Shown piece after piece: positions 1 through 28,989 of a stretch of DNA of 64,000 nucleotides. Position 1 is the first letter of the stretch. Every line of letters begins with the position of its first letter. Below the pieces are notes generated by a model, which saw only the letters and a list, made by a program, of their open reading frames with translations, did not search any database and was not told where the DNA came from. The stretch covers positions 1-64,000 of the forward strand of contig JAGHUP010000002.1 of the NCBI GenBank assembly GCA_018064755.1, written 5' to 3'. The stretch comes from Candidatus Crickella equi (GTDB lineage: Bacteria > Bacillota > Clostridia > Peptostreptococcales > Anaerovoracaceae). Both the position numbers and the translations under genes were made by a program.

Positions 1-93
1 GGGAGTATGTGGGAATCGAACCCACCCGGGAGGCTTCTAACCCCCTACAACGGTTTTGAAGACCGCGAGGCACACCAGCACCTATCTACCCCC
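1..93 (-). tRNA. selC: tRNA-Sec (anticodon UCA), 3' discriminator/CCA lies outside the window
   Basis: Reverse complement GGGGGTAGATAGGTGCTGGTGTGCCTCGCGGTCTTCAAAACCGTTGTAGGGGGTTAGAAGCCTCCCGGGTGGGTTCGATTCCCACATACTCCC: anticodon loop CTTCAAA (TCA), long variable arm GGGGG..CCTCC, T-arm GTGGGTTCGATTCCCAC. Confidence 0.93.
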
Positions 94-11034: not shown

Positions 11035-12054
11035 CTATACTCTTTCAAACAAAATATCGACAATTCCGCCGCACAGCATACCGCTGTTCACAGCTGTAAT
11101 CTTGCCTTCTCCAACCTTTCTGACTGCCGTCTTGAACGAATCATCCTCAAGGAATTTCTGTGCGAATTTAATCGTCTCAGCCTCTGCAAGTCCGCCACCA
11201 ATTGTGCCAATCTTCTCTCCACCGGCCTTGACAACCATCTTAGTTCCCGGTTCTCTTGGTGACGCCTCATACTTTCTTACAAGTGTGCACAGAACTGCCG
11301 GTTCCTTGTCATCTATTATCGCACTGAACTGTTCGTCTGTAAACGCTTTACTATGATCCTTGCCCTCATTCTTGCACTTAATAATCTCGCCAATGATAGC
11401 AATTCCAATCTCCTCAGGCGTCTGCGCTGCAATATCCAGACCGATCGGTGTATGCAGCCTGTCAAACAGAGTAAGATCAAAACCCTTCTCATCAAGCCTG
11501 CCCTTAATTGCATTAACCTTCTTAGGCGATCCGAGCATTCCGATGTAAGCAGCATCCAGCGGCAACAGTTTTTCAAGATTGGCTTCGTCAAGTGCGTGAG
11601 CTCTCATCATTGTAACGATAAAAGTATTCTCGCCGGCTTCGAGATCCTCGAGATTCTTCGCAACCTCGCCGCGAATCACTTTATCAGCACCCGCTTCTTC
11701 GGCCAGGTCCGCAAACTCATCTCTATCTTCATAACAAGTCACATTCATCTCAATCATCTTGCCAGCTTTGATACAAGCAAGGCCGACATGTCCGGCACCG
11801 CATACGATAAGATCCGGCACAGTCTCCACAACTTCGCAGTAAACTTCTTTACCGCCAAAACCGTAAATTCCCGTTTTGCGCACGTTTACGATTTCCGACT
11901 GGTGTTCTTTCATAAATTTGAGATTGCCCCCGCATACGGTAATTTCAGGGCCTGAGAACAGCGTCTTAGTCGAGATTCCGTCCTCAAGAATTGTCGCCAT
12001 TACACTGTGCGAATACAGCTCAACATCTCTTATAACTTTGAATAAGTCTTTCAT
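11035..12054 (-). CDS. XdhC/CoxF family protein
   Basis: C-terminal Rossmann region PDLIVCGAGHVGLACIKAGKM, IGMLGSPKKV, HTPIGLDIAAQTPEEIGIAIIGEI; start moved to internal ATG with GGAG upstream. Confidence 0.85.
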   Translation of the reverse strand: MKDLFKVIRDVELYSHSVMATILEDGISTKTLFSGPEITVCGGNLKFMKEHQSEIVNVRKTGIYGFGGKEVYCEVVETVPDLIVCGAGHVGLACIKAGKMIEMNVTCYEDRDEFADLAEEAGADKVIRGEVAKNLEDLEAGENTFIVTMMRAHALDEANLEKLLPLDAAYIGMLGSPKKVNAIKGRLDEKGFDLTLFDRLHTPIGLDIAAQTPEEIGIAIIGEIIKCKNEGKDHSKAFTDEQFSAIIDDKEPAVLCTLVRKYEASPREPGTKMVVKAGGEKIGTIGGGLAEAETIKFAQKFLEDDSFKTAVRKVGEGKITAVNSGMLCGGIVDILFERV

Positions 12055-12071
12055 GTTAACTCCTATAAAGC

Positions 12072-12093
12072 GTGCGAGGCTAACGCCTCGCAC
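12072..12093 (-). terminator. perfect 9-bp hairpin between the 12100 gene and the XdhC gene
   Basis: GTGCGAGGC-TAAC-GCCTCGCAC. Confidence 0.5.
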
Positions 12094-12099
12094 TTAGAA

Positions 12100-15000
12100 C
12101 TATTTCTTGATTTTGATTGACTTTACAGCAGAGAATGCACCATAAGCTTTCTTGCCGTTAATATTCTTGTACGCCCTAACCTTGTAGAAATAAGTCTTAC
12201 CCTTCTTGAGAGACTTGTTAGTGAAAGTCTTCTTGCTTAAAGTTTTCACCAGCTTATATTTTCCATTGAATGAAGTTGCTCGATATACCTGATATCCCTT
12301 AGCAGGACCACTAACCTTCCAAGTCAGTTTGGCTGCAGTCTTTCCACTCTTGGCAACACTCAGCTTGGTAATCTCAGCAACCGACTCCCACGCAAGAACA
12401 GGGAATCCCTGATTAGCATTGTCTGTATCATCCAGATATGCGCTTCCAAGGGTTGCCGCATAAGTCTTCAGCATATCATCAGCTACAACTTCGCCGGCAA
12501 TACCTGCAGAGCCGCCAACAGCAGCTACTGAACTTGTCGAGCAGAATGAATTTTCAATCTTATTGCAGTCAATTGATCCGCCAGCAACAATACCGCCGAA
12601 TGTATGAGCCTTGTTTGCAGCGCCCTTGCTCATCTTTCCAATATTGTAGCAGTTCTCAACAGTTACGTTGTATGACTTAGTGCTACCGAGGTTGGCAATT
12701 CCGGCAACCTCCGCTGCATCATTGCTTGTGTTAGATACGATTGAACCTGCATTGTAGCAATTCTCAATTGTACCCTTACTCATATTACCAGCGATTCCGG
12801 CAACTGAGCATGTTGTACCATTGGCAGTAACTGTACCATTGTTAACGCAACCGGAACATGTTGTATTACCTTCACAGAATCCGATGATTCCACCAACGGA
12901 ATACTTGTATGAGGACCCTCTCATTTCAGTTGTGATATCTCCATAGTTCTTGCAGTTAGAAACAGCTACTGTATATGATCCGCCATCACCGAGGATACCT
13001 CCAACCTTGTTGCTGATAGAAGTAATCTTACCATCGTTACGACATTTCTGAATCCTTATGCCTGATCCCTTAACTGTACCGACAATGCCGCCAACTCCGG
13101 ATCCGTCACCATCGATTACACTTGTACTGGTGCAGTTGTATATGCTTGTTGAACCCTCAGCAATACCCGCAATGCCACCGGCATTAAACGCCAAGTTCAT
13201 TACAACATCTGCACTGCAGTTCTCAATAGTAGTATCTGTTGCATCACCGACAATGCCGCCACCATTGGCACCATTCGAGAATGAACACTCCATTTTGGCA
13301 TTGTCATCGTTGACATAGGATCCACATGTGACATTAACATTCTTAATAACAGCACCTTCAGTTACACCAAAGAGACCTGCATTGTCTCCCTCGCAGTAAC
13401 CGAAAGCAAAGTTTCTGTTAATATTGCTTACTGTGTGACCCTGTCCATCGAATGTGCCCTCGAATGGATATCTATCTGTTCCAATTCCCGTCCAGTTTCT
13501 TTCAGAGCTGAAGGTGTCACCACTATTAGCTTTGGTATTCTTGAGACTGATATCTGCGCCCAGCTTGATAGTCTTTCCCTTAAAGGATTTGCCACTTTCA
13601 ACGAGCTTGGCGAGTCCTGCCAACTGCTTTGCAGTAGTAATTGTGAATGTCTTCTTACTCTTCTTATACCACGACGTGCTGGCTACACTTGTCCATCTCT
13701 TGCCCTGCGTTCCCGGCTTGAAAGTTATTTCACAGATAGTTGTCTCGCCTGTAACCTTGTAAGTTTTATCAAGCTTGTCCTCGGACAACAATGAATTCTC
13801 AGTATAAACAGGATCAGCAAATTCACCTGTATATTCCAATGACTTAATATCCGGATGGAGGTTCTTGCCACTCTTCATGTGCGGCACAATTTTAATAATA
13901 TCTCCCTCAACGAGTGTGTCTCCATTATGTAGAGTTGTCTTGCTCTTGGATCCGGTGTTAACATCGTAGGTCTTGGTAACAGTGATATAGTAATGCTCTC
14001 CGTCTTCCTTCTCAGGGAACGCTACTTTAACGCCTGTGTTTTCTACGAAAACGCCCTTGACCTTAACATTCTTGCCACATACCGTAACAAAAGATCCAGT
14101 CTTAGCTTCAATAGTCTTTCCATCAACCGTAAACTCATAATGACTAAGCTTGTATCCTTTATCCGGAGTCGCTGTAAGATCAACAATGCTTCCGAACGCC
14201 AATCCGCTGAGCTTGTCAGTCGTTGTAACCTTACCGTGCTGAGTTGAATCAATGCTTACACTTGCAGTACCGAACTTAGACGGATTGCTCTTGTACTCAC
14301 TTGTCTGGAAGAATAGTACCGGATATCCTTTGTTAACATTGGCACTATCTGCCATAAACACAGCACCATTTCTGTTCAGCTTATCCAGTATCTCTGCAGA
14401 CTTCAGATTGACGCCGCTTACTTCCTTAACCTTAGCTCTTCGATTAACATTGCTGGTACCTACGTTGTATCCTGTCTTTCCCTTTACTGTCTTGCTTGGT
14501 GAAAGGTAGTAACAATTCTCTACTTCATAACTTGCGAATGCCTGTCCATCAACACCTATTTCTTGTCCATCATATTTGAACTTACCTGAATCTTTAATAG
14601 CCACTTCGCCAATATTGTAGCAATTATAGATGCTTGCGCCTGCAGGGTTGCGGCCTTCGCTGCCTTCATATCCGTTACTTCCGCAAATTCCACCAAATTC
14701 CCAGTAACAGGAGTGTATGGTTCCTGCGTTGAAACAGTTACGAATAATCGTTTTACCCCATGCTGCTGCGACAATGCCGGCACAGCCTCTCATGTCTGTT
14801 GAATAAACACTTGCATAGTTTGCACAATTTTCAACAACAACTCCATAATTTGTTTCTCCGGTACGTCCTACGACACCTGCAGACATTCTCATTCCACGAA
14901 CGCTGCCCTTTACAACAACATTTCTTGCCGTTGGGACCCACTCCTTGGCATAGTCCATATACGTATCCTTCGGATAACCATTCTTGTAGTCAACTCCACC

Positions 15001-16026
15001 ACCGAGATATCCGATGAGTGCAATTTCCATCGCATAAGCAAATCCCTTAGTTGCGATTCTGTCGCACTTTATGGTTACAGTATGTCCCTGACCATCGAAT
15101 ACGCCCTGGAATCTTGTGTCAACCACGTGTGCCTTCTTGCCGTCCTTGGATGTAGGATTGAGTGCATACTTTCCTCCGATTGGGGTCCAGTTCACATCTC
15201 CCATATCCATATCTGCCGTCAGTCTTACAGTTCTGTACTTAAAGTCATTGAGCACATCATCTTCTGCCAGTTTCTTGTGCTTAACCTCAGGCAGTCTGTA
15301 TACTGTATCTCTTACCTGACCACCCTGATTAGGAGTCAGAAGATCTGCGGTTGCTGCCTTGCAATTAATGTATTCGTGCTTATAGCTTCCACCTTTACCA
15401 CTTCTGCCATCATTATCCTTAATCATGATTTCCTTGGTAACATTGGTATCTACTGCACCATTTACGATTGCTGCCAATCCGGCCAACTGTGCAGGTGTTG
15501 AAATATCAAATTCTGTTTTGTCAGGGTCGTACCAACTTACGTCAACCGCTCCATCCCATTTCTTCAGATTATAGAAATATGCGGTTAGTGTGCCACTTGC
15601 ACCTGAAGGAAGATTGAAGCTATATCCACTACTTACATTTCCTTTATATTCAACATATTGCTCATTACTTCCTGATCCGACCTTAATTGCCGCCAGATCA
15701 TAGCCACCTGCAGGCTTTGCAGTTCCGCTAGTTCCATTGAGTGAAATTGTGCCGTTCTTAATTGCAGAATCCACTACAACACCCGCCGACGAAAGCGGCT
15801 GAGCAACTGTATTTATTTCGTTTTTAATTAACAACTTGTTTTCTGCACCATCGTTATTTGCGATGGTGCTAAGCTCTGATTCTGCTAAAGCAGAGGCCTC
15901 GGTGTTAACCGAAACCTCTGCCTTGTTAGCCATAACAGAGCCATCATCTGTAGCCCATACCATTCCGGCTGGTGCCATACTTAATACCATTGCAAGTGAT
16001 ATAATGCTTACAATTGTTTTCTTCAT
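12100..16026 (-). CDS. large secreted surface protein with GLUG-type repeats and C-terminal Fn3-like domain
   Basis: Signal peptide MKKTIVSIISLAMVLSMAPAGMVWA; repeated GGI(V/A)G...IENC.N.G motifs; C-terminus YQVYRATSFNGKYKLVKTL...YFYKVRAYKNINGKKAYGAFSAVKSIKIKK. Confidence 0.85.
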   Translation of the reverse strand: MKKTIVSIISLAMVLSMAPAGMVWATDDGSVMANKAEVSVNTEASALAESELSTIANNDGAENKLLIKNEINTVAQPLSSAGVVVDSAIKNGTISLNGTSGTAKPAGGYDLAAIKVGSGSNEQYVEYKGNVSSGYSFNLPSGASGTLTAYFYNLKKWDGAVDVSWYDPDKTEFDISTPAQLAGLAAIVNGAVDTNVTKEIMIKDNDGRSGKGGSYKHEYINCKAATADLLTPNQGGQVRDTVYRLPEVKHKKLAEDDVLNDFKYRTVRLTADMDMGDVNWTPIGGKYALNPTSKDGKKAHVVDTRFQGVFDGQGHTVTIKCDRIATKGFAYAMEIALIGYLGGGVDYKNGYPKDTYMDYAKEWVPTARNVVVKGSVRGMRMSAGVVGRTGETNYGVVVENCANYASVYSTDMRGCAGIVAAAWGKTIIRNCFNAGTIHSCYWEFGGICGSNGYEGSEGRNPAGASIYNCYNIGEVAIKDSGKFKYDGQEIGVDGQAFASYEVENCYYLSPSKTVKGKTGYNVGTSNVNRRAKVKEVSGVNLKSAEILDKLNRNGAVFMADSANVNKGYPVLFFQTSEYKSNPSKFGTASVSIDSTQHGKVTTTDKLSGLAFGSIVDLTATPDKGYKLSHYEFTVDGKTIEAKTGSFVTVCGKNVKVKGVFVENTGVKVAFPEKEDGEHYYITVTKTYDVNTGSKSKTTLHNGDTLVEGDIIKIVPHMKSGKNLHPDIKSLEYTGEFADPVYTENSLLSEDKLDKTYKVTGETTICEITFKPGTQGKRWTSVASTSWYKKSKKTFTITTAKQLAGLAKLVESGKSFKGKTIKLGADISLKNTKANSGDTFSSERNWTGIGTDRYPFEGTFDGQGHTVSNINRNFAFGYCEGDNAGLFGVTEGAVIKNVNVTCGSYVNDDNAKMECSFSNGANGGGIVGDATDTTIENCSADVVMNLAFNAGGIAGIAEGSTSIYNCTSTSVIDGDGSGVGGIVGTVKGSGIRIQKCRNDGKITSISNKVGGILGDGGSYTVAVSNCKNYGDITTEMRGSSYKYSVGGIIGFCEGNTTCSGCVNNGTVTANGTTCSVAGIAGNMSKGTIENCYNAGSIVSNTSNDAAEVAGIANLGSTKSYNVTVENCYNIGKMSKGAANKAHTFGGIVAGGSIDCNKIENSFCSTSSVAAVGGSAGIAGEVVADDMLKTYAATLGSAYLDDTDNANQGFPVLAWESVAEITKLSVAKSGKTAAKLTWKVSGPAKGYQVYRATSFNGKYKLVKTLSKKTFTNKSLKKGKTYFYKVRAYKNINGKKAYGAFSAVKSIKIKK

Positions 16027-16054: not shown

Positions 16055-17074
16055 TTATTTTTTAATCTTAATAGCCTTGGATGTTACTGCTGCGGACTTA
16101 TTTCCGGAAGCAGAAACTCCCCAAACCTTAACTTTATATTTCTGTCCCTTAGTAAGCTTCTTTGTTGTGAATGACTTCTTAGTAAGACCGCTCTTAGTCT
16201 GAACGCACTTGCTGCCCTTGTAAACCTTTACAATGTACTTTTCATTGTTGCTTCCAGCCTTCCAAGTAACTTTCAGCTTCTTTCCCTTTACGTTAGTAGC
16301 TTTGAGGCTCTTAACCTTACCAGCCTTGACAACAAATGAACCCTCGCAACGAAGCTGCGAATAATTATCCATTGCAAACTTTCCATTGAAGTTATCTGAC
16401 TTCATATTAATCTCACCGCCTGCCTTAACTGGATCTGCGTTCAGATTTCCTCCAACGAAGAGTTTAATATTATTGGTTGTGTCTTTATCGTTCTTCCATG
16501 CATCGCCCTTAAGTGCTGCCGTAGCTTCTTCATATGTATTGTAATAGCCGCTCTGCATAAGGGACAATACTGGTGTTACATCTTTTTTACCAATGCTTAC
16601 TGCCTTGATTTCATTGGCACCCTCCAGCTTGTTAAAAGGTCCATATATCATATTTCCCTTGTCATCCTGTAATCCAAAGCATACAGTCGCAGACTTTAGA
16701 ATCTTAACTGTAAGAGGGAACTTCTGCGCTGTTTCACCAGCTTCATCAGTCCACACCATAGTTGTATTATCATCAATGTCCTTCAGTGAGCTGATTCCAA
16801 GAGCCTCAATCAGGACATCTTCAAATTCTGGACCTACAGCAATTCTGTATCCCCATTCTGCGCCCTGCTTACCGGCATATGCGAAAATCTGAGGCTCTAT
16901 TGAATGATTCTGCATCCATTCAACACTTACTTTCTTGCCTACGGCTTTACCGTTGAAATATACAGTAATACCATCTGATGCGCCTTCATCTGCGAATGCC
17001 ATTGCAGGCATCATAACAGCAACCATCATGATTGCCATCAGAACGCACGCAAGTTTCTTCATAACTTTTGTCAT
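16055..17074 (-). CDS. secreted protein with C-terminal Fn3-like domain
   Basis: Signal peptide MTKVMKKLACVLMAIMMVAVMMPAMAFA; C-terminus KVKVWGVSASGNKSAAVTSKAIKIKK. Confidence 0.78.
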   Translation of the reverse strand: MTKVMKKLACVLMAIMMVAVMMPAMAFADEGASDGITVYFNGKAVGKKVSVEWMQNHSIEPQIFAYAGKQGAEWGYRIAVGPEFEDVLIEALGISSLKDIDDNTTMVWTDEAGETAQKFPLTVKILKSATVCFGLQDDKGNMIYGPFNKLEGANEIKAVSIGKKDVTPVLSLMQSGYYNTYEEATAALKGDAWKNDKDTTNNIKLFVGGNLNADPVKAGGEINMKSDNFNGKFAMDNYSQLRCEGSFVVKAGKVKSLKATNVKGKKLKVTWKAGSNNEKYIVKVYKGSKCVQTKSGLTKKSFTTKKLTKGQKYKVKVWGVSASGNKSAAVTSKAIKIKK

Positions 17075-17167: not shown

Positions 17168-17521
17168 TTAGTCACCGAACATCATCTGTGTACCGTCCTG
17201 AGCGATGACATAATACTTGTCAGTGTCAGGATCATAGTAAACAGAACCCTGTTTCTCGAGATTTTCACTTGGAGTCTCGGCATTATCGATATCCTCCTCA
17301 GTGAAATCCGTTACGGCATCTTCTTTGCTGGCATTATCGTTAACCTGTCCGTTCTCGGCAATATTAAGATTCCAGCTGACAATGAGCGCCAGCATAATTC
17401 CAACTGCCAGAACCAGCATCGCATCAACAAGATTGGCGACGTGTGCCATCGGATTGATTTCTTCTCTGACCTGTTGCTGCCTCTGAGCTCCAAGCCTTCC
17501 ACTTCCACTTCTTCTAAGCAT
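17168..17521 (-). CDS. DUF2149-like (ExbD-like) single-TM protein
   Basis: INPMAHVANLVDAMLVLAVGIMLALIVSWNLN: TM helix with Asp in an ExbD-like VDAMLVL context. Confidence 0.75.
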   Translation of the reverse strand: MLRRSGSGRLGAQRQQQVREEINPMAHVANLVDAMLVLAVGIMLALIVSWNLNIAENGQVNDNASKEDAVTDFTEEDIDNAETPSENLEKQGSVYYDPDTDKYYVIAQDGTQMMFGD

Positions 17522-18155
17522 GTTTCTTCTCTGCCTCCAGAACGCACTCCATCAGTGTTTCCAGTACCGACATGTAGTTGTTATACCATCTTGTACGAAC
17601 GGTTGAAATAACCAGTGCTACTGCTGCCGCGATAAGTCCCATAATTGTTGTATCGAATGCAGTAAGAAGTGATGATGACAAAGTGATTGTGTCGCCCTGT
17701 CCCAATGCAATGATTCCAGGGCCGAGAGGAATCAGTGTTCCCAGAAGACCCAGCATTGGTCCGATCTTAGCAATCAAATCAGAAATCTTAACTCGTCTGT
17801 CATAGAAAGACTGCTCCTGCTGAATCAGTCTAACAGCCAGTGATTCTCTCATCAGCGGAGTAATATCCGGATGTGAAGTAAGTTCCTCAAGGGCCTCCTT
17901 CTGTCTTACGAGCAATTCACTATTCTTAATAACTTCAACCAGGCCTGCATTGTCCTTAGCCGAGTTAATGTCGTCAACAACCTTAGGCATACTTGCCTTA
18001 AGATACTTATGTTCTGTAACAAACTCTGAAATCAGCCATCCAATCAAGAATACTGAAACTGCAATCAATATCAGCAGTAAAATAATTACCGGAATTTCCA
18101 TAGAGCTTGCAATTGCTCTCATTGCCTTACTAAATATGTTCATTGTTGTTTCCAT
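17514..18155 (-). CDS. MotA/TolQ/ExbB proton channel family protein
   Basis: IGPMLGLLGTLIPLGPGIIALGQGD...LLTAFDTTIMGLIAAAVALVISTVRTRWY. Confidence 0.85.
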   Translation of the reverse strand: METTMNIFSKAMRAIASSMEIPVIILLLILIAVSVFLIGWLISEFVTEHKYLKASMPKVVDDINSAKDNAGLVEVIKNSELLVRQKEALEELTSHPDITPLMRESLAVRLIQQEQSFYDRRVKISDLIAKIGPMLGLLGTLIPLGPGIIALGQGDTITLSSSLLTAFDTTIMGLIAAAVALVISTVRTRWYNNYMSVLETLMECVLEAEKKHA

Positions 18156-19647
18156 TTAACTTACCCCACCTTTGTCTCTTATATCTGTATACACCGAACG
18201 CAGCTCCAGCTGCCGCAAGCGCTCCATTTATTCCAAACAGAGCGAACGCCATGCTGTTAATATCTTTCTTTACCTTGAGCTGTTCAGCATCATTATCCAT
18301 TTCTTCCTGATGCGTATTCATCGAAGCCTCATCTGCATCGGCCTGTCTGTTCAATGCCAATTTGAGCCTCTGTGACGCTGCATCAGATAATATGAATGAG
18401 TTGGATTTGGCATCGATTTTAACTAATTCCTTCTTGGTATTGGCGCCCTTATCCTTGTCAGGATTGCCCTTACCACCGGTTCCACTACCTTCACCGTTGC
18501 CTTCGCCACCGCCCTGCTGGTCGCCGACCGTGACTGTGAATTCCTTGACTGCACCATTACTCTTAGCATAGACCTTGGCCGTTCCGTCCTTGTTAAACTG
18601 CAGATTGCCGTTGCTGTCTACACTAACGATGCTCTCATCACTCGTTGACCATGTGATACTCTTTTCTATCTTCTTCTCGAGCGCTGCATCAGCCGCCGCA
18701 GCTGACACCTTGAGTTGGTGGCTGCTTCCGACTTTGGCATTGATGTTGGTCTCCTTGGATGTCAGCTTTGGAGTACCCGAAAACATAATGTATATCGTGT
18801 GAACCTGCTTGGCCGAATTGAAGGTCCTCTTCTCATCCGGCTTTGCCTGACCAAAATTCAATCTGAATCGGTTGGAAGTTCCGAGATTGTCCGTACCGCT
18901 TGCGTTCGACGTTCCTATCTCGTACCAGGTCCAATTCTCCTCGAGAGCCATCATAGCCGGCACCCTCTTCGCATTCTTCCAGGCTTTATCTTTGTTGATT
19001 ACAACCTTTCTGCCATTAGTGCTTGAAGCTCCGGTTGGTGCCATATCCAGATCCAGTCCTGATACTTCAACCTCTATATCCTGACCATCTTCATCCTGAT
19101 TGTCCTGGTCATCCTGCTTCGGTTGTTCCTCTTGCTTGCCGGAGTCATCCTTCTTTTCGTCGCTCTTGTCGTCGCTCTTGTCGTCCTTATCCTTCTCATC
19201 AGCATACTCAAAACAAGCTGCCAGATTCTTGAAGTAATAACGCTTGGTTCCCAGTAACTGCTGCCATGTGAAGCTGGTGAAAGCTCCATTGCCCGAGTCT
19301 GCTGTCCAGAAGTCCATCTGTGCAATCGAACTCTGATCTATACCGGCTGCATCGATGATGTCCGTAAGCTGAACTCCGATAGATGAATCAATTGCTACTC
19401 TCTTGCCTCCGTCCCAGTAAGTATAGTCACGCTTGATGGTGCCCATATTGTACAGATCCGAAGCCTTGAAAACCTTCTTCTCAACGTAATCTGAGGTTGG
19501 CCAACCGAAATATCCTATCTTGATTGTCAGTTTGTCCACAGCATTGGCATTAACACTCTGTATGCCCACACTGAAGGTCAGAACCAGACTAAGAATAATT
19601 ATTAATATTTTCTTCAAACTGCCTTTAATTCGCATTCGTCCCTTCAC
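18130..19647 (-). CDS. membrane-anchored surface protein with Ig-like (BIG2-type) domain, charged linkers and C-terminal TM helix
   Basis: Signal peptide ILIIILSLVLTFSVGIQSVNA; Ig-like SWSTSDESIVSVDSNGNLQFNKDGTAKVYAKS; C-terminal AFALFGINGALAAAGAAFGVYRYKRQRW. Confidence 0.75.
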   Translation of the reverse strand: MKGRMRIKGSLKKILIIILSLVLTFSVGIQSVNANAVDKLTIKIGYFGWPTSDYVEKKVFKASDLYNMGTIKRDYTYWDGGKRVAIDSSIGVQLTDIIDAAGIDQSSIAQMDFWTADSGNGAFTSFTWQQLLGTKRYYFKNLAACFEYADEKDKDDKSDDKSDEKKDDSGKQEEQPKQDDQDNQDEDGQDIEVEVSGLDLDMAPTGASSTNGRKVVINKDKAWKNAKRVPAMMALEENWTWYEIGTSNASGTDNLGTSNRFRLNFGQAKPDEKRTFNSAKQVHTIYIMFSGTPKLTSKETNINAKVGSSHQLKVSAAAADAALEKKIEKSITWSTSDESIVSVDSNGNLQFNKDGTAKVYAKSNGAVKEFTVTVGDQQGGGEGNGEGSGTGGKGNPDKDKGANTKKELVKIDAKSNSFILSDAASQRLKLALNRQADADEASMNTHQEEMDNDAEQLKVKKDINSMAFALFGINGALAAAGAAFGVYRYKRQRWGKLNGNNNEHI

Positions 19648-19651
19648 TATT

Positions 19652-20743
19652 CTATCTTCCTGCTGAATTCTTCAGGAATTTGTCTACCTCATTGTCTGAT
19701 AAATCATAGTGCCAGAAGAGCTTGTAGTATTCCTTGGCATCCTTATAAATATCTCCATCATAGAGATCTGGATATACAACGCTCATTAGCCAGCGTGCAC
19801 CCAGTACCTGGTTTACGCATGGAGGGGCTGACATCCAGCTATATGGATCACACGGAATCTCATAGTACTTTCCTTCCTTAACGGCACGGAGTTCGCACCA
19901 CTGTGAGTCCTTGTTGCTCATAGTATCGAAAGGTCCACCCTGTGCAACAATAATCACATCAGGATCGACATTGTATACCTGCTCGAAATCGAGCGGATTT
20001 CCGCCGTCTCTTCCGTTAACCTCTTCATCATCGACCTGAACAGCGTTCTTCGCACCAATGAATGGGATAACAGCAGCCTGCACGCTTCCCTCGATATTAC
20101 AATTCAAACCTGTTGAGCTGACTCCAAAGAGAATTGATTTAACATCCTTGTTGCTCAGCTTTCCTTTGATTTTCTCGGCTCTTGCTATAGTCTCCTCGCA
20201 GTACTTTGCGAGTTCCTCTGCTTCTTTCTCCTTGCCCAGGATTTTGCCGAGCTTTCTGTACGCTTCAGGATATGTCTCCAAGCTTGCCTCGACATAAATA
20301 GTCGCTATGCCTGTCTCTTTCTGGATGGTATCCATATCCTCGTTACCCTCTTCCTGAATCTCACCGACGTCTATGATAATCTCAGTATCCGTCTGCATGA
20401 GATTCTCGAGGTTCAGGCTCATCTTCTTACCATAGAACTGTCCGAGTGTAGGCAGATCAATATAGTAATCCGGGAAATATTTTGCCTTGGCCATTGATGG
20501 CGCCTCTGCAAGGCCAACCATCATCTCCGGTGCCAAAGTTACAAGTATCATCTGTGCGTTAGGTCCCGAAGCCACAATCTTGCTGATGTCCTTGCGGAGT
20601 TCAACCTCTCTGCCGTAATCATCAGTATATGTGTATGTCTCAACCCCTTCAGGATAAGTTACATCACTGCCGCTGCATCCCGTCAAACTCATTGAGGTGA
20701 CAATCATCACCAGTATTAATAACAGCGAGTATAATCTCTTCAT
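19652..20743 (-). CDS. iron-chelate/cobalamin-type ABC transporter substrate-binding lipoprotein
   Basis: Lipobox MSLTGCSG; DDYGREVEL; FepB/BtuF-like architecture; next to FecC-like permease and ATPase. Confidence 0.87.
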   Translation of the reverse strand: MKRLYSLLLILVMIVTSMSLTGCSGSDVTYPEGVETYTYTDDYGREVELRKDISKIVASGPNAQMILVTLAPEMMVGLAEAPSMAKAKYFPDYYIDLPTLGQFYGKKMSLNLENLMQTDTEIIIDVGEIQEEGNEDMDTIQKETGIATIYVEASLETYPEAYRKLGKILGKEKEAEELAKYCEETIARAEKIKGKLSNKDVKSILFGVSSTGLNCNIEGSVQAAVIPFIGAKNAVQVDDEEVNGRDGGNPLDFEQVYNVDPDVIIVAQGGPFDTMSNKDSQWCELRAVKEGKYYEIPCDPYSWMSAPPCVNQVLGARWLMSVVYPDLYDGDIYKDAKEYYKLFWHYDLSDNEVDKFLKNSAGR

Positions 20744-21514
20744 TTACATATCCTTTAATTCGAAGAACCTCACCTTGTGATCTTCGCTCTCTATCATCTC
20801 AACGTCGATATTGTACATATCGCGTATCAGCTGCTCATCCATTACAGCTTCAGGCTTGCCCTCTCTATGAACCACTCCGTCCTTGATACAGATAATCCTG
20901 TCTGCAAATACATAGGTCTGCTCGGGATTGTGAGTGCTCTGAATAATGGTGTATCCCTCCGATACCAGCTGTCTCAACTGTTTCTGCACTCTCATCTGAT
21001 TGCCATAGTCAAGGCTCGATGTCGGCTCGTCCATTACGAGTATCTTGGCACCCTGCGCAAGTGCTCTTGCAATCAACACCATCTGCTGCTCACCACCAGA
21101 TATCTTTGTATAATCGCGATTCGAGAGGTGCTCGATTCCCATTTTGGTGAGAGCCTCTGTCGCAACGCGGCGCTCATCGGCACCCGGACTTCCAACTCCA
21201 TTCAACTGAGAAGTGGTACCCATCAGAACCATATCCATTACGTTGTAGGCAAAAGCAGGCTTGGTTGCCTGCGGTATATATGCGACATGCATCGCTTTCT
21301 CGCGCGGCTTCATAGTTGACATATCGATGCCATCAATTTCGATATTGCCGCTATATCCTTTGAGGAGTCCGAGCATGCACTTGAAGAGTGTGCTCTTGCC
21401 GGCTCCGTTGTGTCCGAGGATGCAAAGCAACTCACCGGGATGGGCATCGAAGGAGATTCCTTTGAGAACCTCATGATTGCCATACGAGAATTTAAGATTC
21501 TTAACACTTATCAT
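20744..21514 (-). CDS. ABC transporter ATP-binding protein (FecE type)
   Basis: GHNGAGKST, ISGGEQQMVLIARAL, LVMDEPTSSLD. Confidence 0.92.
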   Translation of the reverse strand: MISVKNLKFSYGNHEVLKGISFDAHPGELLCILGHNGAGKSTLFKCMLGLLKGYSGNIEIDGIDMSTMKPREKAMHVAYIPQATKPAFAYNVMDMVLMGTTSQLNGVGSPGADERRVATEALTKMGIEHLSNRDYTKISGGEQQMVLIARALAQGAKILVMDEPTSSLDYGNQMRVQKQLRQLVSEGYTIIQSTHNPEQTYVFADRIICIKDGVVHREGKPEAVMDEQLIRDMYNIDVEMIESEDHKVRFFELKDM

Positions 21515-22521
21515 GCGGACTCGCCTCCCTTCGTTATCAGATATATGAAGAAAGGTGCTCCGATAATTGCTGTCAGAATTCCGATTGGAATCTCAACAGC
21601 GAATAGATTTCTTGAAATATTGTCTACCATCAGCAGGAAGAATGCTCCTGTAAAGATTGATGCAGGCAGTAAATATCTATAGTTGTTGCCGACTATTTTC
21701 CTGCAGAAATGCGGCACAACAAGTCCTACCCAGCCAATCATTCCGCTGACAGATACTGCCGCTGCTGTAACCAGAGTCGCACATACCAGTGATACCAGTC
21801 TTACTCTGGATACGTGTATTCCCATTGTTGTTGCTTCCTGCTCACCAACTGTGAGAACGTTGATTTTCCATCTCAGTAGCACAAGAGGGATAATTCCTAT
21901 GAGAATAACAACGCCTGAGAATAGGACATCATTCATAGTGATTCCGGTCAGGCTTCCCATCAGCCAATAAGTAATTTCAGGAAGCTCATTGGTCTGATCC
22001 GCTACAAGCTTGATGAAACTCGTTCCTGCCTGCGCTAGAGCACTGACCATAAGGCCTGCCAGAACAAGGCCAACTGTCTTGTTGCCTCTTGTTCTGTTGC
22101 CGATGATGTATACCAGCCAGATAGTTGCCAGGCTGAAGATGAATGCCATAACGGTTATCATCCAGTCACCCATTCCCATAATGATTGCAAAAGCTGCTCC
22201 CAGCGCTGCTCCACTGGATGCGCCAAGGAAATCAGGTGCAGCCATAGGGTTCTCAAACACTCCCTGATATACACAGCCAGCTGTTGAAAGGGCTGTTCCA
22301 ACGAGACATGCAACCAGGATTCTTGGAAGTCTTACTGTCAGGAAGATATGTTCCTGCTGACTTGTCCAAAAAGGCTTAATGTCTGTGAACTGACTGATAA
22401 TAATTCCACCAAGTTCCTTAACTGTAATGTCAAACTGTCCCAGGAAGAAGGATACAATAACACCGGCAACCACCATGATTGCCATAACTATTACCGTTAC
22501 TCTCTTCTTCGCGTCAGTCAC
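21511..22521 (-). CDS. FecCD-family ABC transporter permease
   Basis: RLPRILVACLVGTALSTAGCVYQGVFENPMAAPDFLGASSGAALGAA; GWVGLVVPHFCRKIVG. Confidence 0.92.
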   Translation of the reverse strand: MTDAKKRVTVIVMAIMVVAGVIVSFFLGQFDITVKELGGIIISQFTDIKPFWTSQQEHIFLTVRLPRILVACLVGTALSTAGCVYQGVFENPMAAPDFLGASSGAALGAAFAIIMGMGDWMITVMAFIFSLATIWLVYIIGNRTRGNKTVGLVLAGLMVSALAQAGTSFIKLVADQTNELPEITYWLMGSLTGITMNDVLFSGVVILIGIIPLVLLRWKINVLTVGEQEATTMGIHVSRVRLVSLVCATLVTAAAVSVSGMIGWVGLVVPHFCRKIVGNNYRYLLPASIFTGAFFLLMVDNISRNLFAVEIPIGILTAIIGAPFFIYLITKGGESA

Positions 22522-22524
22522 TTG

Positions 22525-24135
22525 TTAATCCTGCTCCTTCTTATCAAAATATCTATACAGAACTTTGGTGAATGGCGGGATATTGGTTTCTCTCGCCGCT
22601 TCCCATCTCTGTACTTCGTAATCCTTCTCTGCCGCGATGCATTCATTAGCCTGAATTATCAGGTCCTCACCGCTAGTCTTAATTCCTGTTCTTGCCGTGA
22701 ACATCTGAGCCAGCTTCTCGAAGGTCTCGTCATCGTCCAGAAGTGCGAACGATGTGAAGATGCAGAATCCCAGATTTTCAAGCACGAATATCTGTGCATA
22801 CAGGAGGTCGATTGCAGTCATTCCCCTAAGTCTTGGATATCTGCTATCGATCATAATGTCGAAGAGCTTCTCATCCTGAATTGCCCTTCTGTCCATCAGC
22901 GCCTCAATACCGGTATCAGCATAGAGCTTTCCAATGCCATAGGTTCTTGATGCAATAATTCGACCAATCGCCGTGCCGCGCTCGATCTCATCCAGCCACT
23001 CGAGAAGATGTGCCTCGCCATGCTCAATACCATTCGCTTCAGCGAAAGCTTTGGCTGCCGTAACATATTCAACACTCACAAGACTCATCTCGGTTGCTCT
23101 AATCTGAATCTCTCTCGACATCTCATAGTCCTCGATGTCAAAGCAGTTCTTCACCGCTGCCTCGACCTCGACTTGCGACGGGCTTTCGTATCTCTTACCA
23201 TCGCTGCTCGAATGTCTGTTAAGACAACCAATTACACACATTGGCGCACAAGTCTTATTGTTCTTTCTATTGTCACAGTCATCGCAGTGCTGCTCCGGCT
23301 GTTTATCCGTGAATTTATCGGATTCAAGAGACTTCTTGCGGTCCATCTCAGAAAGCTCCTTGAGACTGGCTTTGCTCTTCAGAATCTTCATAATTGTGAT
23401 GGATCCGTATGTTGGTAGCGCTCCACCGCAAACCTCATCGTTAATAATCTTCTGTGTGAGTTCCTTTCCAATTGTCCAGAACTCGTCAGGATTCTTGTTA
23501 TCTCTACCAAAATAATCCTTGCTGTCGATAACAAGTGCTCTAAGATTCTTAGCACCGAATACATCCCCGAATCCGCTTCTCGGGCTATGGTATTCAGGAA
23601 TTCCATGCGGGTATGTCAGGAACATCGAAGAAAGTGACATTCTCATATCTCCGCATTTACCTGTTCCTACAATACCGATATCATCGTTGTAGCAAGCCTT
23701 GAGTCCATGAACGATATCCTTGACGCTTGCTCCATTAAGTTCCGGCTTAACTGTGAACTCTACGCCCTGACTGTCTATACGAATAACGCTGCCCTTCTCT
23801 TCAGCAATACCGGTAATTACAATTGCCGCAATTCCGAGGCTGCCGATTTTCTGTGGAAGGTTTCCTGTTGTATTGCATATCTGAATGCCTTTACCTCTGT
23901 CCTCAGCTGTAGCAACGAACATACGAACAGCGCTCGGCGCCTTGTTGCCTGCAAAGAATCCCGGAGCAATGATTATTGCATTATCCGCGTCATATCTTCC
24001 GGCATTATCCGGAACATATTTCCTGAGCAAATCAAGCACCAAGCCTCTGCCATACACATGAGATTCGTCATATGAGTATGGGATTTCTTCACAAGTCTTA
24101 TTTGAAAGATTAATTATCAGTATTCTTTCAGACAT
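22525..24135 (-). CDS. aldehyde ferredoxin oxidoreductase (AOR) family protein, divergent
   Basis: GRGLVLDLLRKYVPDN, SPRSGFGDVFGAKNLRALVIDS, Cys cluster CDDCDNRKNNKTCAPMCVIGC, LENLGFCIFT. Confidence 0.82.
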   Translation of the reverse strand: MSERILIINLSNKTCEEIPYSYDESHVYGRGLVLDLLRKYVPDNAGRYDADNAIIIAPGFFAGNKAPSAVRMFVATAEDRGKGIQICNTTGNLPQKIGSLGIAAIVITGIAEEKGSVIRIDSQGVEFTVKPELNGASVKDIVHGLKACYNDDIGIVGTGKCGDMRMSLSSMFLTYPHGIPEYHSPRSGFGDVFGAKNLRALVIDSKDYFGRDNKNPDEFWTIGKELTQKIINDEVCGGALPTYGSITIMKILKSKASLKELSEMDRKKSLESDKFTDKQPEQHCDDCDNRKNNKTCAPMCVIGCLNRHSSSDGKRYESPSQVEVEAAVKNCFDIEDYEMSREIQIRATEMSLVSVEYVTAAKAFAEANGIEHGEAHLLEWLDEIERGTAIGRIIASRTYGIGKLYADTGIEALMDRRAIQDEKLFDIMIDSRYPRLRGMTAIDLLYAQIFVLENLGFCIFTSFALLDDDETFEKLAQMFTARTGIKTSGEDLIIQANECIAAEKDYEVQRWEAARETNIPPFTKVLYRYFDKKEQD

Positions 24136-25646: not shown

Positions 25647-26615
25647 CTATTGCATTGGGCAAGCCTTGGATTCTTCCCCGCTATCTCTGCGCTCGGCACG
25701 AACAAGTACCATTTCAGCAGTGATACTGATAGCTATTTCTTCAGGTGTTACAGCCTTAATGTTTAATCCAATCGGTGTATGAACGCCGGAAATTGTCTCT
25801 TCATCAATACCGGCCGCACGAAGTCTCTCATTAACAGATGCTGTCTTCTTGGCCGATCCGATAACTCCAACATAAGCAGTCTCGGTTCTCAGAACCTGCT
25901 CCTCTACATCAAAATCATGCGCGTGACCATTGGTCATAACAACTACATAGTCGTCTTCTGATATGTCTATATAATCATTCAGCTTAGAGTAGTCACCTAC
26001 AATTCTTCTCTCTGCCATAGGGAACCGCTCCTCAGTCACGAACTCCTCGCGGATATCCATAACCCAGATTCGAAATCCTACACTTGCGAGAACAGGCGCA
26101 AGTGCTTTGGCCACATGACCGCCACCGCAAAGCAGTACCCTCTCTCCGATCGCTAGCGACATTGCGAAGATACCATCTCCCTCCGGACGCTCATTCTCAA
26201 GGCTCGGCATCGAACCATCCAGATGAAGAACCAACCAGCCGGCCTGCTTGTCCGCAATTCTTGTTGTAATCTGACGCGCAAGCTCAAGCCATCTGGCATC
26301 CGATGAATCTATATACTGAAAGAGAACCTTGACGTCACCGCCGCATTCCATTCCGATATCTTCATTAACACCTTTGCGCAGTTCATACAGATGTAGCTCC
26401 GATTTCTTCTCAGCTATCAGTTTAATCGCGTACTGTTCAGCCGTCTTCTCAACCGATCCGCCACCAATAGTTCCGCAGAGCTGACCCTCAGGGCAAACCA
26501 GCATCTGAGATCCGTTTCCTCTTGGACTGGATCCTGCCTGCTCAACTATTGTGACCAGCATCAAATCGATATTCTTTTCCATTAAATATGGGATTTTGGA
26601 AAAAACAGTTCTCAT
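25647..26615 (-). CDS. XdhC family protein (Mo hydroxylase maturation type), second paralog
   Basis: EQAGSSPRGNGSQMLV, GTIGGGSVE, LLCGGGHVAKALAPVLASVGF, HTPIGLNIKAVTPEEIAISI. Confidence 0.88.
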   Translation of the reverse strand: MRTVFSKIPYLMEKNIDLMLVTIVEQAGSSPRGNGSQMLVCPEGQLCGTIGGGSVEKTAEQYAIKLIAEKKSELHLYELRKGVNEDIGMECGGDVKVLFQYIDSSDARWLELARQITTRIADKQAGWLVLHLDGSMPSLENERPEGDGIFAMSLAIGERVLLCGGGHVAKALAPVLASVGFRIWVMDIREEFVTEERFPMAERRIVGDYSKLNDYIDISEDDYVVVMTNGHAHDFDVEEQVLRTETAYVGVIGSAKKTASVNERLRAAGIDEETISGVHTPIGLNIKAVTPEEIAISITAEMVLVRAERRDSGEESKACPMQ

Positions 26616-26627
26616 ATATTCTATCTC

Positions 26628-27803
26628 CTATATCATTTCATCTCCAAGAATCTCTCGGAGAGATTTCTCAATTGCATAACTGCGCTCAAGCTGAGCCTGA
26701 AACGCTGCCTCAGCCTCCTGACCATGAATCTTATGACGGCTGTCCGCAAAGCGCTTCTCAATTGTTACGAGCTTGTCCTCCTGAACGCGCTTGTCTACAT
26801 AATATAATATGTCAGCTTCCGTCAGAGGATCGTCGCCGCCGCTTGGTCTTCCATTAACAGACAAGGCCTCGTGATGATTCGCTATCAGAGACGCAAGTTC
26901 TGCATAGCCTTCACTTCTTATATATTTTGCTCCCGCATATGCATGCTTGTAATCAAGTCTTCTTATATCATGCAGAACAGCTGCCTTGTGAAGCAGTTCT
27001 CTGTTGAAATGCATATCGTGTGACTCAAGTCTATCAAGCAGCACATCCTGATAATCGGCCACCGCATTCATATGCTTTATTATATGTGCCGGAACATTAT
27101 TTTGCTCATAGAAATAGCCTATAGCATAGTTATCCAGATGTGAAAGCGGCTTGTATCCAAGTAGCTCTATCTCCAATTTGTCATTTAGAATTGTAATTCC
27201 TGCGTACGGCTGTGGAATTGCAAAGAGACTATCAGGCCCATGGTATTCATAGAGGTCGGCTCTCTCTTCCAGTGGCAATTCCATCAGGAAGCCTCTGAAT
27301 ACACCGGCATGTGCCACCACGATAATATCACCTGCTATTTCGTCTGCGAGCTCTGCCAACGCCTTCCCAAATCTTCGGCCTGCATTTACAAAGTTCTCGC
27401 CGCCGGGTATTTCATAAGTTGAAAACGCCTTTCCTCGAGCCTCGAATTCCTCGGGATACTGTTTCCTGATATCATCGAAGGTCATATTCTCCCAATGACC
27501 GCAACTGATTTCCCTAATATTTTCACAGATACGAATGTCTTCTCCCTTGCGCCCAAACTCTGCAGAAATAATTCCTGCGGTTTCAACGCATCTTGTCAAC
27601 GGGCTTGATACAATTGTCGCTCTGTCGTAACCATTCTCGCGTAACCAGCTGGCAGTTTTGGCAGCCTCCAAGCGACCATAATCTGTCAGCGGATAATCGG
27701 TATCGCTAACGCAGCGTAACGGTCCGTCAGGCTTGGCCAGCTCACCATGGCGTATCAGTATTATTTTTCTTGATTCCTTATTCTTCATGCCATCAATATA
27801 CAC
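26628..27803 (-). CDS. histidine phosphatase (PGM-like) domain fused to HD-domain hydrolase
   Basis: N-terminal IILIRHGELAKP; SSPLTRCVETA; C-terminal LLHKAAVLHDIRRLDYKHAYAGAKYI HD motif. Confidence 0.85.
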   Translation of the reverse strand: MYIDGMKNKESRKIILIRHGELAKPDGPLRCVSDTDYPLTDYGRLEAAKTASWLRENGYDRATIVSSPLTRCVETAGIISAEFGRKGEDIRICENIREISCGHWENMTFDDIRKQYPEEFEARGKAFSTYEIPGGENFVNAGRRFGKALAELADEIAGDIIVVAHAGVFRGFLMELPLEERADLYEYHGPDSLFAIPQPYAGITILNDKLEIELLGYKPLSHLDNYAIGYFYEQNNVPAHIIKHMNAVADYQDVLLDRLESHDMHFNRELLHKAAVLHDIRRLDYKHAYAGAKYIRSEGYAELASLIANHHEALSVNGRPSGGDDPLTEADILYYVDKRVQEDKLVTIEKRFADSRHKIHGQEAEAAFQAQLERSYAIEKSLREILGDEMI

Positions 27804-27879
27804 TGATTCACAAGTTATTGCAAAAGCAAGCTCCTATGGAGTATTATTAGTGTGTATAGATGTGTTTGGAAGGAAAAAT

Positions 27880-28989
27880 ATGTCGAAAGAAAGTTGTGAA
27901 GTAAAGTTAATAGATCCGAGCAAGCCAATTCGTCTCACCGAGATGACTACGGCGGGCGGATGAGGAGCCAAAATAGGGCCGGGTGTCCTATCGGAAATTC
28001 TCTCCGGACTGCCTAAGATCGCGGACGAGCGAATCCTGGTTGGTTTTGAGAGCAGCGATGATGCGTGCGTTTACAAAGTAAGCGACGATGTCGCTATGAT
28101 TAATACTATTGATTTTTTCCCACCAATCGTGGATGATCCATATACATTCGGACAGATTGCGGCAGCGAACTCGCTGAGCGATGTCTACGCTATGGGCGGT
28201 GAGCCAAAACTCGCTATGAACCTCTTGTGCTTCCCAAACTGCTTGCCACTTGATGCGGTCAAAGCAATCCTTGAGGGCGGCAACGACAAGGTTAACGAGT
28301 GTGGCGCGACCATCGTGGGTGGTCACAGTATCGAAGACAACGAGCCAAAATACGGCCTGTCTGTAACTGGTTTCGCACATCCTCGTGATATTCTGTCGAA
28401 CAGTGCCAATGCGGGCAACCTGCTCGTGATTACCAAGAAGATTGGTACCGGTATTCTGTCGACAGCTGCCAAGGGCGGTCTGCTTGCTGAAGACGATGTT
28501 AAGGCTATGGAGCAGAACATGGCAACGCTGAATAAGTATGGCTGGCTGGCGATGCAGAAAATTCGCAACGCCGGAGCCGTAATCGATGGATGTACTGATA
28601 TTACTGGTTTTGGCCTACTCGGTCATGCGGGCGAAATGGCTAAGGCTGGCGATGTGACGCTGGAACTGTTCACTAGTAAGGTTCCGATGTTCGAAAAGGC
28701 ACTGGAGATGGCTCAGCTGGGTATCATTCCTGCCGGTGCATACAGAAACCGCGAGTATATCGGTGATGATGTGCTGGAGTTCCTGAGCAAGGATCCTGAG
28801 AAGGACCACCTGCTGAGAGCTAGAATTGATTGTCTCTTCGATCCTCAGACTTCCGGCGGACTGCTGATTGCAATTGATGAGAAGCATGTGAAGGATCTGC
28901 AGGAAGCTCTCGGAGAACAGGGCTGCGAGACAGCAATCATCGGACAGTTTAAAGATAAGAAATCGAGCTTTATTGAGCTCCACGATTAA
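27880..28989 (+). CDS. selD: selenide, water dikinase SelD, itself a selenoprotein (Sec encoded by UGA 27961-27963)
   Basis: ATG at 27880 and the downstream 28096 ORF are in one frame, interrupted only by TGA 27961-27963 in TTAGG-U-GAKIGPGVL; the catalytic Cys/Sec position of SelD. Confidence 0.94.
27964..27999 (+). promoter_or_regulatory. bacterial SECIS-like hairpin after the selD UGA
   Basis: ATAGG(27973-27977)-GCCGGGTGT-CCTAT(27987-27991), G-rich apical loop about 18-20 nt after UGA. Confidence 0.72.

Follow-up and report, generated by a model that had tools for sequence, protein, structure and literature searches.

The accepted view of ExbB/ExbD-type motors is that they energise an outer membrane. 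For the hmuYRSTUV heme operon of Bacteroidota, HmuU/V were assumed in an EMBO J 2025 study to power the TonB receptor (PMC12583661), and a 2026 paper on HmuS described HmuV as without homology to any known family (PMC13227078). DUF2149 itself had already been linked to TolQ in methanogens (PMC9425974). Here we analyse a window of 64,000 nucleotides (JAGHUP010000002.1) and find that its ExbB-DUF2149 gene pair is HmuU/HmuV of hmuYRSTUV, with HmuV being DUF2149. We propose, with moderate confidence, that in this monoderm of the gut the pair is a proton-driven stator that energises the acquisition of a Mo/W cofactor, or of Mo/W, at the cell surface. The sequence-only reading of this DNA had not described the hmuU/hmuV identity, the anchored surface protein that completes a triad with the pair, the ABC importer or the molybdenum-cofactor link.

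The pair closes a run of seven genes on the minus strand, from 24135 to 17168, in which neighbouring genes overlap or are separated by at most 4 bases. The run is given in gene order in the first seven lines below, followed by the codon of Asp33 and the neighbouring features.

22525 to 24135, minus strand: aldehyde:ferredoxin oxidoreductase-like (AFOR-like) protein, AFOR_N 9.8e-32, opening the contiguous operon
21511 to 22521, minus strand: FecCD/BtuC-type permease
20744 to 21514, minus strand: ABC ATPase
19652 to 20743, minus strand: SBP, a lipoprotein of the Peripla_BP_2 family
18130 to 19647, minus strand: surface protein of 505 aa with Sec-type signal, PF00174-related N-terminal domain, Big_2, C-terminal TM and basic tail
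17514 to 18155, minus strand: MotA/TolQ/ExbB-family channel protein (HmuU-like), 213 aa, PF01618 7.8e-12
17168 to 17521, minus strand: DUF2149 protein (HmuV-like), 117 aa, PF09919 4.2e-8
17423 to 17425, minus strand: Asp33 codon of DUF2149
16055 to 17074, minus strand: secreted fn3 protein, downstream of DUF2149 on the same strand
12100 to 16026, minus strand: large secreted surface protein of 1308 aa, with relatives in 62/107 loci
11035 to 12093, minus strand: XdhC family (molybdenum hydroxylase maturation), flanking the operon
25647 to 26615, minus strand: XdhC family, flanking the operon on the opposite side

The host genome (1.39 Mb, 82% complete) carries a second, paralogous locus (G000:C15) with the same core and a lipoprotein with a PF00174 (Oxidored_molyb) domain (5.6e-12), and both ExbB-DUF2149 paralogues are intact. 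The window also holds a tRNA-Sec gene (1-93, minus strand) and selD (27799-28989) with an in-frame TGA (GGUGAKI), likely read as selenocysteine.

The TolQ/ExbB transmembrane features that had been noticed in the neighbour of DUF2149 are borne out by a PF01618 match of 45.5 bits, above the curated cut-off of 22.9, and by the motifs G136-L137-x-G139-T140 and T170-x-x-G173, which the protein has in common with ExbB/TolQ. T140 and T170 align with the threonines of the TM2/TM3 pair of E. coli ExbB and TolQ, and the protein is, judged by its sequence, a true member of the MotA/TolQ/ExbB family. The TM3 stretch F167-D168-x-T170 (window 17646-17654) is invariant in monoderm ExbB. D168, which is also present in the hmu-type locus L031 and missing from the diderm hmu-type proteins compared, lies one helical turn off the site of E. 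coli ExbB Glu176, a site that is non-acidic in monoderm ExbB.

The DUF2149 protein matches PF09919 with 33.9 bits (curated cut-off 27.1). The sequence-only reading was exact in its coordinates, including the 8-nt overlap with the ExbB gene (17514-17521), and in the helix NLVDAMLVLAVGIMLAL that contains D33. It had also placed D33 at the position of the proton-relay Asp of ExbD/TolR, and our alignments agree: D33 falls on ExbD Asp25 and on the TolR Asp with both MAFFT and hhalign. All 106/106 monoderm DUF2149 sequences have D33, M35 and L36 of the D-x-M-L motif, N30 is nearly invariant, and in five diderm hmu-type relatives the position of D33 is acidic as well (Asp in four, Glu in one, Runella slithyformis). 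Lack of conservation of D33, which the sequence-only reading had named as a refutation, is therefore not what the homologues show. The broader claim, that the helix as a whole resembles that of ExbD/TolR, stands for the register with the Asp, but the similarity is weak: the in-register hhalign score is 13.8 against a shuffled mean of 7.7, 2/300 column shuffles score as high, and the HH probability is 5%. Foldseek of the DUF2149 model returned no match below E 0.7, a lone helix being uninformative for a fold search. PF02472 (ExbD/TolR) has zero matches in the DUF2149 protein or across the 82% complete host genome, and the DUF2149 profile, searched against PDB sequences, did not return ExbD. The model consists of a basic N-terminal tail, one confident TM helix (24-58), a disordered linker and a C-terminal beta-hairpin; the linker and single hairpin stand in place of the folded periplasmic domain of ExbD, as the earlier remark on a short soluble part unlike ExbD had suggested. 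Because position, acid, partner and topology agree, we take DUF2149 to work like ExbD, but the weak homology does not suffice to place it in the ExbD family.

A scan of genome contigs yielded 572 relatives, and the best 80 of the 572 belong almost wholly to Clostridia, while some come from Coriobacteriia. In 103/106 loci the two genes of the pair are direct neighbours with the same orientation. Across 107 loci the constant elements are the surface protein, ExbB and DUF2149, while FecCD/SBP importer genes occur in about 40%. The outer-membrane marker Omp85 was absent from 16/16 genomes with the locus, and both diderm controls were positive.

The third constant element is the protein encoded directly upstream of the pair. 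In 86/91 cases it carries a hydrophobic segment at its C-terminus, and 83/86 of these also have a basic tail. In the 505-aa protein of the window, the C-terminal TM corresponds to model helix 465-495 and is followed by such a tail. Its N-terminal domain groups with PF00174-type lipoproteins (hhalign 93%); in a Foldseek search of the whole model Big_2 dominates, and the sulfite dehydrogenase SorT appears only at rank 23 (E 1.1e-3). This protein is our candidate for the partner moved by the motor. Among small PF00174 lipoproteins, 24/31 have a Cys aligned with the Mo-ligand Cys146 of E. coli MsrP. No Tat signal was found in 50 exported proteins checked, so that these proteins must leave the cell without cofactor. 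Several surface proteins have S-layer homology domains (L037, L054, L071, L082), which suggests that surface partners are wall-bound. A small NTPase_1-family gene lies near three loci (L003 14606-15136, L032 10523-11086, L058 20296-20631); the one in L058 immediately follows a Moco riboswitch.

The link to molybdenum comes from the relatives. The Moco riboswitch RF01055 was found in 6/43 related loci scanned (L033, L058, L070, L071, L082 with two copies, and L083, the last of these from Rfam scans of 19 further loci), and there is another in L055, outside this count. At the density seen in the family sample, about 53 per 190 Mb, the scanned stretches should contain less than one. The riboswitch directly precedes surface protein-ExbB-DUF2149-lipoprotein in L070, lies within the operon in L071, precedes a large surface gene in L033, L055 and L083, and in Sporobacter termitidis (L082) stands ahead of a run of surface genes leading into the pair; that of L058 counts for less because it is about 9 kb away. 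By genome, DUF2149 shows no association with the presence of the riboswitch (p 1.0), thus the link is one of position and not of presence, and only a trend with MoaC (p 0.09). On the other hand, MoCoBD_1 Mo hydroxylases occur in 18/19 same-family genomes with this locus type vs 23/80 others (p 1e-7, ignoring kinship), and in 10/10 vs 15/60 of genomes at least 85% complete (kinship again ignored). Mo-type genes are missing from the same-family DUF2149 loci L051, L053, L054 and L031 (the last with CobN), which are of other types. Since RF01055 was found neither in the window nor in the host genome, and no MoCoBD_1 enzyme was found in the host genome (82% complete), the Mo reading of the window is taken over from its relatives. 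In the window itself, AFOR, XdhC and a gene order in common with L058 hint at the same.

From the gene content, conservation, and genomic and riboswitch associations observed in the relatives, we infer a proton path, a motion and stoichiometry of the pair, a transfer of force to the surface protein, a substrate and a direction of transport. The ExbB-like protein and DUF2149 would form an ExbB/ExbD-type proton-driven stator with D33 as the proton-carrying acid, and proton flow through it would rotate or shift a DUF2149 pair. The load would be the anchored surface protein encoded just upstream, with its sulfite-oxidase-fold domain and single C-terminal TM, instead of an outer-membrane receptor, because it is the only conserved thing within reach. 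Cycling of this receptor by the motor would capture or release a Mo/W compound at the cell surface, most likely the Mo/W cofactor itself, else the oxyanion, and the captured compound would be handed to the lipoprotein SBP and then to the FecCD/ATPase importer.

A stronger form of this proposal, which we regard as tentative and rather doubtful, is that the locus is the first bacterial importer of intact Mo (or W) cofactor, in which Sec-exported sulfite-oxidase-fold receptors would bind free cofactor and the minimal ExbB-DUF2149 motor would release it to a B12-type ABC importer. Worms take Moco from their diet (PMC9793310), and our literature search found no bacterial Moco importer. What makes import of intact cofactor attractive is that Mo hydroxylases, but not MoaA, MoaC or MoeA, were found in five genomes that carry the locus (G348, G349, G353, G085, G007). 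We keep it at this low level because the family-wide test gave no link to auxotrophy: among genomes with Mo enzymes, the locus is present in 4/8 without MoaC vs 14/33 with MoaC, most of them incomplete MAGs.

The importer itself bears on a simpler, though unlikely, explanation, namely plain MolABC-like import of molybdate or tungstate, in which the surface proteins and ExbB-DUF2149 would only concentrate the oxyanion or move a receptor. FecCD with Peripla_BP_2 is the MolABC class. The SBP of the paralogous locus matches HI1472, the molybdate/tungstate-binding MolA, with 2.9e-14, far better than BtuF (6.7e-5), and the Sporobacter locus encodes a solute-binding protein of PF13531, the family that includes ModA. 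The SBP of the window showed no preference for any characterised ligand class. The sulfite-oxidase-fold surface domains and the PMF motor, however, would be left unexplained by oxyanion import.

Uptake of heme or another tetrapyrrole, with the pair acting as HmuU/HmuV do in hmuYRSTUV and heme or cobamide entering through the FecCD/IsdE-like ABC system, appears to us quite improbable. It draws on the identity of the pair with HmuU/HmuV, which stand in operons with CobN-like HmuS (PMC13227078, PMC12583661; Prevotella and Bacteroides loci), on the matches of the window SBP to the IsdE model (6e-13) and of the permease to BtuC, and on a CobN/DUF2162 version within the same bacterial family. That version, L031 (7309-12823), reads DUF2162-ExbB-DUF2149-CobN, is of the hmu type with a secreted CobN, and has no TonB receptor nearby. 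Yet CobN (PF02514) was not found in the host genome (82% complete), DUF2162 (HmuT) lies beside the pair only in L031 among 107 loci and is absent from the window locus, and the relatives have Moco rather than cobalamin riboswitches, together with PF00174 domains.

Two other loci show further arrangements. In Trichlorobacter lovleyi pGLOV01 (L172), a single run encodes BzaF, a TonB receptor, DUF2162, ExbB, DUF2149 and CobN, then a separate ExbB-ExbD-TonB set; the presence of two stator pairs side by side speaks against the DUF2149 pair driving TonB and for its being a motor of its own that acts on a different load. We rejected a simple role of the pair in energising a TonB receptor, given this separate set and the lack of the outer-membrane marker in the monoderms. 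In Runella slithyformis pRUNSL01 (L174), ExbB-DUF2149-CobN and a TonB receptor lie between hypF and hypC/hypD, with a urease accessory protein, which is possibly a nickel version of the system.

A purely mechanical role at the cell surface (adhesion, S-layer, movement of surface proteins), in the spirit of GldLM and unrelated to nutrients, would fit the frequent Big_2, fn3, SLH and large repetitive surface proteins of these loci, but we consider it very improbable in view of the importer in about 40% of them and the Moco riboswitches. Least credible is a non-functional remnant or an unrelated membrane pair in which DUF2149 is no stator subunit: one study calls the Ton systems of monoderms likely non-functional (PMC12204202), and Foldseek was blank for the DUF2149 model. 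Against this stand the intact state of both paralogues in a genome of 1.4 Mb, the 572 relatives among genome contigs and the invariance of D33.

If the proposed Mo/W-linked stator is widespread in monoderms, motors of this type would be older or more general than outer-membrane powering, serving to do mechanical work on proteins outside the cell. HmuV would thereby acquire a function and the gut heme operon a testable residue, and the stator would point to a missing route of Mo/W or Moco acquisition in gut anaerobes.

Compared with the hmuYRSTUV heme operon of Bacteroidota, the locus has the same gene pair, order, frequent overlap and acid at the same place of the helix. It differs by having no HmuY, TonB receptor, CobN-like HmuS, DUF2162 or outer membrane, by its partner, an anchored surface protein with a sulfite-oxidase-fold domain, and by D168 of ExbB TM3, which is peculiar to the monoderm clade and L031. 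With ExbB/ExbD and TolQ/TolR (PF01618/PF02472) it shares an ExbB partner within the family, an N-in single helix with the Asp near its start, and a D-V-M-L-V motif, whereas DUF2149 has neither the ExbD periplasmic domain nor a PF02472 match, and there is no TonB or outer membrane here. The likeness to sulfite-oxidase/MsrP-type domains (PF00174) lies in the lipoprotein domain match and the retained Mo-ligand Cys position; in contrast, the locus proteins are Sec-exported with no Tat signal and many members are without the Cys. MolABC/FecCD-type importers have the same class of SBP, permease and ATPase, which the present locus combines with a PMF pair and with sulfite-oxidase-fold proteins at the surface. 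The new part is this context: a monoderm pair with an anchored sulfite-oxidase-fold surface protein, often accompanied by lipoproteins and a FecCD/SBP importer.
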